This document shows positions 632-4,842 of a DNA stretch of 61,158 bases, in pieces (position 1 is the first letter of the stretch; each line of letters begins with the position of its first letter). The DNA lies in assembly GCF_004343505.1 (NCBI RefSeq), contig NZ_SLXU01000017.1:1-61158 (forward strand), written 5' to 3'. This DNA comes from Rhodovulum bhavnagarense (GTDB taxonomy: Bacteria; Pseudomonadota; Alphaproteobacteria; Rhodobacterales; Rhodobacteraceae). The notes beneath the pieces are model-generated. The model did no database searches. It worked only from the letters and a program-made list of their open reading frames with translations, and was not told the DNA's origin. The position numbers were made by a program, and so were the translations under genes.

Positions 632-1174
632 CTACCAGAGCGCGGGGTCGTCGAAGGCGGCGACGCAAGCCGCAGGCCCGCGCAGCGGCGTCAGCGGCGC
701 GTCGGTCAGGGACTGGGCGATCCAGCCCTGCGGCTGGTTTAGCGGTTGCGGCGCGGGCAGGTCGGCCTCCGTGACCGGCTCGAACCCGACGCGGCCATAG
801 AAGGCCGGATCGCCATAGGTCACCGCGATGTCTACGCCCTCCTGCCTGAGCGCGTCGAGGCCGTGCGCGATCAGCCGCTGCCCGACGCCCTTGCCTTGGC
901 GTTCTGTGGCGACCGCAACGGGGGCCATCAGGAAGACCGTGCGCGGATCGCCCGCATAGGTGAGGCGCGTGAAGAAGATGCCGCCGACGAGCGCGCCGTC
1001 CTGCCAGGCGGTGAACACGCGCAGATCCCCGGCGGGTGTCTCGGCGATCAGGCGGCGCGCGAGAGCACCTATCAGCGCGCCTTCCTCCGCCCCCTCGGCT
1101 GTGGTGAAGGTCGCGGCGAAAAGCGTCGCGATCGCCTCGGCGTGGGTTTCGTACTCCGGTGAATACTCTGTCAT
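632..1174 (-). CDS. GNAT family N-acetyltransferase
   Basis: This is a single-domain GNAT acetyltransferase of about 180 residues, expected to move an acetyl group from acetyl-CoA to an amine of unknown identity in the cytoplasm. The acetyl-CoA loop is visible as ERQGKGVGQRLI (R/QxxGxG/A). It is followed by the late strand VTYGDPAFYGRVGFEPV, typical of YhbS-like GNATs. A GGAGG lies just upstream of two adjacent ATGs (1177 and 1174). I chose 1174 because its spacing of four bases is the better of the two. The longer reading up to 1405 or 1457 has no ribosome site and looks non-coding. It runs divergently from the SOS-boxed small gene. Confidence 0.85.
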   Translation of the reverse strand: MTEYSPEYETHAEAIATLFAATFTTAEGAEEGALIGALARRLIAETPAGDLRVFTAWQDGALVGGIFFTRLTYAGDPRTVFLMAPVAVATERQGKGVGQRLIAHGLDALRQEGVDIAVTYGDPAFYGRVGFEPVTEADLPAPQPLNQPQGWIAQSLTDAPLTPLRGPAACVAAFDDPALW

Positions 1175-1413: not shown

Positions 1414-1428
1414 GTTCTTAAAAAGTTC
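1414..1428 (+). promoter_or_regulatory. LexA/SOS box 1
   Basis: A GTTC is followed by seven bases and a second GTTC. This direct repeat is the LexA operator form established for Alphaproteobacteria. It is the distal member of a pair upstream of the 40-residue gene at 1493. Confidence 0.75.
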
Positions 1429-1438
1429 TTTACACGCG

Positions 1439-1466
1439 TTGCCAAAAATGAGAACAAAAATAGAAC
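1439..1466 (+). promoter_or_regulatory. Promoter overlapped by LexA/SOS box 2
   Basis: A -35-like TTGCCA (1439-1444) and a -10-like TAGAAC (1461-1466) are separated by 16 bases. The -10 lies inside a second operator, GAAC-N7-GAAC (1452-1466), the reverse complement of the alphaproteobacterial SOS box. LexA bound there would block the promoter. Transcription would begin near 1473, only a few bases before the GGAG ribosome site at 1481. Confidence 0.7.
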
Positions 1467-1492
1467 AAAGATGCAGACAGGGAGCTTTCGAC

Positions 1493-1615
1493 ATGCTGCA
1501 CGACCTCATGGCCACCTTGACGAGATGCCAGGCGACGCTGTGGCAGGATGCGCTTGGCGCGGCCTGCCTGATGGTTTTGCTGTTTGCGGGGCTGCACCTG
1601 CCCGCGCTCATCTGA
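1493..1615 (+). CDS. Small SOS-regulated inner-membrane protein (40 aa)
   Basis: The gene encodes 40 residues: a polar amphipathic N-terminus (MLHDLMATLTRCQATLWQD) followed by one hydrophobic helix (ALGAACLMVLLFAGLHLPAL). A GGAG lies eight bases before the ATG. Two LexA boxes and an overlapping promoter lie within 80 bases upstream, and a hairpin with a T-run lies about 100 bases downstream, so it is a self-contained SOS transcription unit. In Caulobacter, the SOS-induced SidA is a 29-residue membrane peptide that blocks division at FtsW/FtsN. This gene has the same size class, topology and regulation, but I see no proof of sequence homology. A role as a division inhibitor is an inference. 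Confidence 0.7.
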   Translation: MLHDLMATLTRCQATLWQDALGAACLMVLLFAGLHLPALI

Positions 1616-1714
1616 TCGGTTTACTGCCCGTTGCCCTGGCATTGTCCGCGCCGCTTCCCCGGCGGTTTCACCCGGCTCCTGCCTTGCCGGGCGCTGTCCA
1701 GGGCGCCTGACTTG

Positions 1715-1751
1715 CCGCCGCCTCCGGTTTCCGGTGCGCGGCGGTTTTTTT
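1715..1751 (+). terminator. Rho-independent terminator of the small SOS gene
   Basis: CCGCCGC (1715-1721) pairs with GCGGCGG (1738-1744), followed by a T7 run. It ends transcription from the left and abuts the stop codon of the convergent NifU-like gene. Confidence 0.7.
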
Positions 1752-3506: not shown

Positions 3507-4842
3507 GGCTCAGCCAGTGGCCCCAATCGGCCTTGGCCCGGTCGGTATACGCCTTGTAACGGTCGCGCCGTCCCCGCCGCCCGCCCTTGAGGCCGGTGAC
3601 GGGCGGGAACAGCCCGAAATTGACATTCATGGGCTGAAACGTTCTTGCCTCGGCTCCCCCGGTAATATGGGTCAAAAGCGCGCCGGTGGCGGTGGTCTCG
3701 GGCACCGGGGGCAGGGCGCGGCCCTGTAGGTCGGCCGCGGCAAGGCGCCCTGCCAAAAGGCCCATCGCGGCACTTTCGACATAGCCCTCGACGCCGGTGA
3801 CCTGACCTGCAAAACGGATATGAGGATGCGAATGCAGGCGCAGTTCCCGATCCAGAAGCGTCGGCGAATTCAGGAAAGTGTTGCGATGTATGCCGCCAAG
3901 ACGGGCAAAGCGTGCATTTTCCAGGCCCGGAATCATCGTAAAAACAGATTTTTGCGCGCCGTATTTCATCTTGGTCTGAAAGCCCACGATGTTATAGAGC
4001 GTGCCCAGCTTGTTATCCCTGCGCAATTGCACCACGGCATGGGGCTTGATGTCGGGCGCATGGGGATTGGTCAGGCCGACGGGCTTCATCGGGCCGTGGC
4101 GCAGGGTTTCGCGTCCCCTTTCGGCCATGACCTCGATCGGCAGGCATCCGTCAAAGTAACCCGCCGTTTCGCCCTCGCGGAACTCGGTCTTTTCGGCGGC
4201 CAGCAGCGCGTCGATAAACGCCTCGTACTGGTCGCGGTCCATGGGACAGTTCAGATAGGCGGTGCGCTCTTCTTCTGTCTCGCCCTTGTCATAGCGCGAC
4301 TGGAACCAGGCGCGTGACATGTCCACGCTGTCGGCATGGACGATGGGCGCGATCGCATCGAAAAAGGCCAGCGCCTGGGTTCCGGTTGCGGCCAGGATCT
4401 CCGCCCCCAAGGCATCGGATGTCAGCGGACCCGTTGCGAAAATCCAATGACCATTCTCAGGAAGCGAAGTTATTTCAGATACTTCCACCGTGATCTTTGG
4501 GTGGTGTTTCAGTCTCTCGGTGACGGCGTTCGAAAATGCCTCGCGATCCACGGCCAAGGCGCCACCCGCAGGCAGGCGATGCGCATCAGCCATTTCCATG
4601 ATCAGGCCATTCGCCTGCCGCATCTCCCAGTGCAGCAGGCCGACAGCGTTTTGTTCGCTGTCATCCGAGCGAAAGGAGTTGGAACAAACCATTTCCGCCA
4701 GGTTACCGGTCTGGTGAGCGAAGGTGCCGACAAGGGGACGCATCTCGTGGATCACCACGTCGATACCGGCTGTTGCGGCCTGCCACGCGGCCTCTGATCC
4801 GGCCAGCCCACCGCCAACGATATGAAGCGTGTTATCTCTCAT
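3499..4842 (-). CDS. trmFO: Folate/FAD-dependent tRNA (uracil-54-C5)-methyltransferase
   Basis: TrmFO makes ribothymidine at position 54 of tRNA, using methylenetetrahydrofolate and FADH2. The N-terminus [18 protein letters not shown] is the FAD-binding GxGxxG motif, followed by VIHEMRP. The segment [23 protein letters not shown] is the family signature, and the catalytic-type Cys appears in [15 protein letters not shown]. At 447 residues it is full length. It is the upstream member of a two-gene tRNA-modification operon with gluQ. Confidence 0.97.

Follow-up and report, generated by a model that had tools for sequence, protein, structure and literature searches.

What would a gene of only 40 codons do behind two candidate binding sites for LexA, the repressor of the SOS response? 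The question is raised by the beginning of a 61,158-nucleotide (nt) stretch of the Rhodovulum bhavnagarense genome (contig NZ_SLXU01000017.1; the whole stretch is hereafter called the window), in which a sequence-only reading had noted two exact GTTC-N7-GTTC boxes, one of them inverted, before a gene for a possibly SOS-controlled membrane peptide. Both boxes are indeed exact, one on each strand (Table 1). The comparison with related genomes reported here strongly supports control of the gene by LexA, and the best explanation of what was found is that the gene belongs to the SOS core of this family, the Rhodobacteraceae. Division arrest through FtsW/FtsI/FtsN is the best reading of what the peptide may do.

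Conservation of the gene and its promoter

A search with the single protein matched 55 of 101 genomes at an expectation value (E) of 1 or better; these include all 16 genomes of the window's genus, its own counted, which matched at 3.1e-9 or better. Across 199 Rhodobacteraceae genera, a match was obtained in 174 with a profile of 28 sequences and in 185 with a profile of 148 sequences, 176 of the latter at E 1e-4 or better, a split made by eye. The nine matches above this value (G016, G030, G055, G109, G130, G134, G141, G147 and G163) may be false, and matches of similar E-values also occur as strays outside the family. A single match per genome was found in 180 of the 185 matched genomes, and named members of Cereibacter, Phaeobacter, Sulfitobacter, Leisingera and Paracoccus carry the gene. 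It is present in 286 of 292 genomes of a sample of the order, all listed as Rhodobacteraceae, and a sample of the class gave credible matches in 5 of 385 genomes, again all Rhodobacteraceae. The profile search detected no credible homologue in the other 380 genomes of the class sample, the stray matches there scoring below 19 bits and, with one exception (an 80-codon frame), lying inside frames of at least 174 codons; the profile searches scored the best 19 (class sample) or best 38 candidates per genome, a depth at which distant short relatives could escape. For nine pairs of the window with members of its genus, divergence at nonsynonymous sites (dN) is 0.12–0.27 and at synonymous sites (dS) 0.62–1.33; because dN is well below dS, the gene is judged to be under purifying selection. 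Nucleotide differences are commonest at the third codon position, with 3200, 1903 and 5871 at positions 1, 2 and 3, respectively, over 297 close, non-independent pairs.

The promoter is conserved together with the gene. It was followed in 157 gene-bearing genomes (16 of the window's genus and 141 others), a set from which weaker matches were left out, so that divergent copies are under-represented, and in which start codons nearest the profile start were picked, so that uniform N-termini arise partly by construction. GTTC-N7-GTTC (box 1) occurs within 150 bp upstream in 155 of the 157, at 66–110 bp before the start. Ten control patterns are found in 0–7 of the same genomes each, except for the N6 spacing with 134, a count that is explained by a third GTTC half-site upstream of box 1. 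In 133 of 155 genomes (for instance L004, L016 and L021) this half-site precedes box 1 by 10 bp, one base less than the 11 bp from one half-site to the next in the LexA motif, and it is absent from the window at 1404–1407. In the two gene-bearing exceptions, G194 and G241, box 1 is broken and the promoter is partly kept. Over the 155 rows, all selected for possessing box 1, the consensus is GTTCnCaAATGTTCTcAaAAAGTTCTTTACa-N14-TGAGAACAAAgnggcAACAaa, and the bases between and around the half-sites of box 1 are conserved as well. We infer that this consensus represents a promoter with a -35 element, a 17-bp spacer and an extended -10 element, in which box 1 touches the -35 and box 2 begins within the -10. 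Two sites placed in this way suggest tight repression. The expectation that both boxes are kept with the gene holds for box 1, whereas no more than 8 of the 155 rows have an exact box 2; 134 rows have GAAC-N7-(C/G)AAC and 151 have GAAC-N7-NAAC, GAAC-N7-CAAC being the commonest form among relatives. With 8 exact cases in 155, the box 2 of the window is a strong example of a site that is weaker in most genomes. Three copies missed by the first profile (L334, L335 and L336) are divergent versions of the gene, preceded by this promoter or one like it.

A reverse search in named genomes with the promoter core GTTCTYAAAAAGTTCTTTACA (exact matches) found the gene next to it, counted as present when the profile score exceeded 15 bits, in 112 of 116 places among the matches listed; two of the others end at the edge of the locus, and two, in an alphaproteobacterial bin (L273) and in Lunatimonas (L274), are without the gene. 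Boxes without the gene are therefore limited to 2 of 116 among the matches listed and the gene without the boxes to 2 of 157, the two kinds of case that the sequence-only reading had singled out as damaging to it. A single box taken alone is close to chance and weak evidence: the window holds 5 exact boxes against 1.86 expected, a number reached in 5 of 100 shuffles, and the genome 100 against 87 for a reversed-pattern control. Simple arithmetic from 100 boxes in 3.15 Mb predicts about 0.19 box pairs within 60 bp. A composite promoter pattern, constructed from the promoters of relatives, matches the window at one place, and none of 100 shuffles contains it. A chance origin of the paired boxes and the gene was ruled out by conservation, by the reverse promoter search and by the shuffle test, since box and gene are conserved together and the composite pattern is absent from all 100 shuffles.

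The claim that the gene has its own ribosome-binding site and terminator is borne out by a Shine-Dalgarno sequence and a hairpin with a U-rich tail (Table 1). A consensus terminator scanner did not report this hairpin, for which the scanner's 8-nt loop limit has been suggested as the cause. A longer frame of 58 codons, starting from TTG at 1439, was rejected because its start would fall inside the promoter.

Table 1. Predicted features of the 40-codon gene and its promoter, in positions of the window.
Feature	Position	Strand	Remarks
Operator box 1, GTTCTTAAAAAGTTC	1414..1428	+	Exact GTTC-N7-GTTC; abuts the -35; box 1 in 155/157 relatives
Putative -35 element, TTTACA	1429..1434	+	Identical in 106/155 rows; every position 70–100% conserved
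Putative extended -10 element, TGAGAACAA, TG(A)GAACAA	1449..1457	+	17-bp spacer from the -35; T and G each 94% (155 rows)
Operator box 2, GAACAAAAATAGAAC on +, GTTCTATTTTTGTTC on -	1452..1466	-	Exact GAAC-N7-GAAC on +; left half forms the beginning of the -10
Shine-Dalgarno sequence, GGGAG	1480..1484	+	8 nt before ATG; similar site in 147/157 relatives
40-codon gene, predicted single-pass membrane peptide, MLHDLMATLTRCQATLWQDALGAACLMVLLFAGLHLPALI	1493..1615	+	ATG at 1493; dN < dS; 185/199 family genera
Predicted terminator hairpin, GCCGCCGC...GCGGCGG	~1714..1751	+	GC-rich; T7/U7 tail; -23.9 kcal/mol, z -2.7

LexA as the probable regulator

The gene for LexA itself carries the motif. GAAC-N7-GAAC lies within 160 bp before the chosen lexA start in 23 of 25 loci; these loci come from 27 genomes, among them one without lexA and one with a partial lexA, and 20 of the genomes were chosen since the first profile had found no peptide gene there. 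On the strength of this count, GTTC-N7-GTTC is very probably the LexA motif of the Rhodobacteraceae. The lexA gene of R. bhavnagarense is preceded by an exact box at C3:185518–185532. The two lexA loci without an exact box belong to genomes G154 (L320) and G143 (L323), in neither of which a peptide gene was detected. In Caulobacter the LexA motif is likewise GTTCN7GTTC, and a single LexA box is present in about 97% of SOS promoters (PMC12700426, in excerpt). The earlier proposal of SOS control is well supported by the joint conservation of box and gene, and we consider it very likely that the gene is repressed by LexA and that DNA damage lifts this repression.

A different regulator, or plain expression from a strong promoter, would fit some features of the locus: the third half-site at a 10-bp step and the degenerate box 2 are unlike a plain LexA pattern, exact boxes are barely more frequent in the genome than the control, and the gene is kept in three of the five genomes without a lexA match. 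Such a reading leaves aside that box 1 equals the published Caulobacter motif (PMC12700426, in excerpt) and that lexA bears the same motif in nearly all loci viewed, and we regard it as very improbable.

The distribution of lexA agrees with control by LexA to a limited degree. It was found in 194 of the 199 family genomes, and the peptide gene is lacking in 2 of the 5 genomes without lexA against 12 of the 194 with it (p 0.041, from a 2 x 2 table counted by hand); with the curated lexA cut-off the figures are 3 of 7 against 11 of 192 (p 0.008). These comparisons rest on small numbers and draft genomes and ignore kinship, and two genomes between the lexA thresholds were partly assigned from E-values, so that the co-absence lends weak support to the link with LexA. 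Several observations pull the other way. The association falls to p 0.10 (0.035 with the curated cut-off) when the nine weak matches are counted as absent. The 12 genomes just mentioned have lexA and no detected gene, and three others, G122, G189 and G190, all of them fragmented, keep the gene without a lexA match. Also, an exact box is missing from the stretch examined at recA of R. bhavnagarense, and among frames read by eye in 19 stretches with exact boxes lexA was the only textbook SOS gene recognised; an exact box is thus a poor guide to which genes of this genome belong to the regulon. Apart from lexA proper, a second protein of this genome (G000:C25:4107–4460), whose match covers the C-terminal portion of the LexA model, has an exact box just upstream at 4536–4550, and a similar match occurs in G012 (C2:7941–8294).

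The peptide and its possible partner

The peptide is 36–43 residues long in the 157 genomes, and a structure model predicts helices at residues 2–11 and 13–39 with a mean predicted local distance difference test score (pLDDT) of 92; conservation backs well its original description as a 40-residue single-helix membrane protein. Basic residues occupy position 6 in 82% and position 11 in 85% of the 157 genomes, and owing to them the N-terminus is predicted to lie inside, that is, in the cytoplasm. D19 and G22 are found in 157 of 157 genomes, L34 in 156 of 157 and P37 in 148 of the 149 with a residue at that position, while in an alignment of 148 rows that includes the three divergent copies D19 is invariant and G22 nearly so. 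The conserved positions, D19 and G22 foremost, share one face of the helix, and conservation is periodic near the helical 100 degrees (permutation p 0.024, 0.015 and 0.025 for three residue ranges). Such a face suggests a membrane partner on which the peptide would dock helix to helix. In Paracoccus homiensis (L299) a shortened version of 31 residues stands behind the same promoter; it keeps DxxG, the helix and LP and lacks the N-terminal helix, so the core is probably the membrane helix. Searches of Pfam/NCBIfam with 148 members, of PHROGs with four and of the PDB with the profile returned no significant match, only weak, scattered ones (best E 0.0043).

The preferred mechanism begins with LexA bound to box 1 at the -35 and to box 2 at the extended -10, where it would block RNA polymerase. 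RecA on single-stranded DNA would then induce self-cleavage of LexA and free the promoter, and a short mRNA with a leader of about 29 nt would yield the 40-residue peptide. Its short N-terminal helix would remain cytoplasmic and the helix of residues ~13–39 would span the inner membrane, leaving almost nothing outside. The face formed by D19, G22, L26, L30, L34 and P37 would dock on a membrane partner, most likely FtsW/FtsI/FtsN, the complex that synthesises septal cell wall, and pause division until the DNA is repaired, as SidA does in Caulobacter. We hold this proposal of a SidA-like pause through docking on the FtsW/FtsI/FtsN complex with slightly better than even confidence.

Support by analogy comes from several single-pass inhibitors induced by SOS or DNA damage that act on FtsW or FtsN (PMC4211646; PMC13396833, both in excerpt). 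SidA and DidA block division and do not prevent divisome assembly (PMC4211646, in excerpt), and loss of lexA in Caulobacter causes filamentation through sidA (PMC12700426, in excerpt). The helix of YneA is necessary and sufficient for faint midcell localisation and has been modelled on transmembrane helix 7 of FtsW; models by the same authors, not of high confidence, also place SidA on FtsW (PMC13396833, in excerpt). The peptide described here resembles SidA of Caulobacter crescentus (29 residues, LexA-controlled) as a tiny inner-membrane protein with little periplasmic room, the prediction being a single helix in a protein of some tens of residues that has no sizeable domain beyond the cytoplasm and membrane, and the Paracoccus version comes close to SidA in length. 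It differs in being family-wide in the Rhodobacteraceae and in having a DxxG...LP core and a conserved box with a degenerate second box. DidA, also from C. crescentus, is likewise a small single-pass protein, produced upon DNA damage, whereas the peptide here is predicted to have almost no periplasmic part. YneA of Bacillus subtilis, SosA and ChiZ are SOS-induced membrane inhibitors too, and the YneA helix interacts with FtsW, but YneA requires an extracellular LysM domain; no such domain follows the helix here, with which the protein ends. No described equivalent was encountered in the literature searched, outside which most subscription papers lie, nor in the family libraries. The peptide represents a new protein family among SOS-induced single-helix peptides and may belong to the SidA class.

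The case for docking is tempered by the modest significance of the periodicity (p ~0.02) and by the loss of G22 in some divergent copies. Moreover, DinQ and TisB are SOS-induced single-helix peptides of other function, so that these traits are no proof of division inhibition. A peptide of the TisB/DinQ kind, depolarising the membrane and slowing the cell during SOS, would have a like regulator, size and single helix, TisB and DinQ of E. coli being LexA-controlled single-helix peptides of similar size. Those peptides belong to type I toxin–antitoxin loci with an antisense RNA, and in such loci this RNA controls the toxin mRNA, whose leader is long and structured. No leader of that kind was seen here: counted from a transcription start that is itself placed by the promoter, the estimated leader has a median of 29 nt (range 16–60, n=151), and a site similar to the Shine-Dalgarno sequence precedes the gene in most relatives. 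A crude scan demanding T at the end of the -10 detected no sigma-70-like antisense promoter over the gene. Also, the gene is mostly single-copy at a fixed locus, and its conserved helix face bears Asp and Gly. Because of the copy number, locus, leader with Shine-Dalgarno site and polar conserved face, a division inhibitor is favoured over membrane-active toxins of the kind represented by DinQ, which depolarises the membrane (PMC3567139, in excerpt), and we find a toxin-like role quite doubtful.

A conserved face would suit any specific membrane partner, and the peptide, once induced by SOS, could assist or restrain some other membrane protein, such as a CckA-like kinase, a transporter, a protease or a part of the DNA-uptake or gene-transfer-agent machinery. 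We know of no SOS peptide of similar size that acts on a kinase, and no obvious partner gene lies nearby, the neighbours being homologues of recG, ligA, hisI, gluQ and trmFO. For a CckA-type partner speak a ctrA-like regulator gene ~4.4–5.4 kb upstream, before ligA, in 19 of 20 genomes and the tie of LexA in Rhodobacter capsulatus to cckA and gene transfer (PMC6473078, in excerpt, citing Kuchinski 2016). Taken together, a partner other than the division machinery is a tentative possibility and on the unlikely side. In a further version, the peptide would be a family-wide SOS effector of 31–43 residues with a DxxG...LP face for one membrane protein, a two-operator promoter and a locus inherited from an early ancestor, in its boldest form acting on CckA and linking DNA damage to the CtrA/gene-transfer-agent programme; this we regard as a long shot.

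Should the peptide act on division as preferred here, FtsW as its target would lend support to the idea, already proposed, that SOS inhibitors commonly act on FtsW (PMC13396833, in excerpt). SOS division inhibitors are short, and annotation easily misses them. To our knowledge, most bacterial groups have no known SOS division inhibitor. In the Rhodobacteraceae, a family common in sea and soil, peptide and switch are kept across most members, and one gene, its promoter unusually conserved, points to a likely checkpoint across the whole family, making the question of how these bacteria halt division upon DNA breakage directly testable.

Genomic neighbourhood

The locus was surveyed by tblastn in 12-kb views of 20 genomes, in which the names CtrA, GluQ and scaffold are our reading. 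In all 20, recG ends 90–254 bp before the gene, ligA also precedes it, and hisI and a gene like that of an iron–sulphur scaffold follow; a gluQ-like gene and trmFO are found in 18, and all or part of gyrA in 9. Pfam backs RecG, LigA, the OmpR-type regulator, HisI, the tRNA-synthetase-like protein and GidA/TrmFO, and gives no match at 1e-5 for the scaffold-like protein. A mobile or phage gene was considered and rejected, as the synteny is fixed and neither a match in phage records nor a promoter match in viral contigs was found; plasmid records gave one match at E 0.01, to a 1.58-Mb 'plasmid', and none with a second query. The window begins at the start of its contig. Here a GNAT acetyltransferase gene (632–1171, minus strand) lies upstream, where all 20 relatives have recG, and recG, ligA and the ctrA-like gene were not found in the window's 61 kb. 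Among the relatives, an extra gene intervenes in L076, L077 and L088, and more than 5 kb separates the peptide gene from the scaffold-like gene and hisI in L071.
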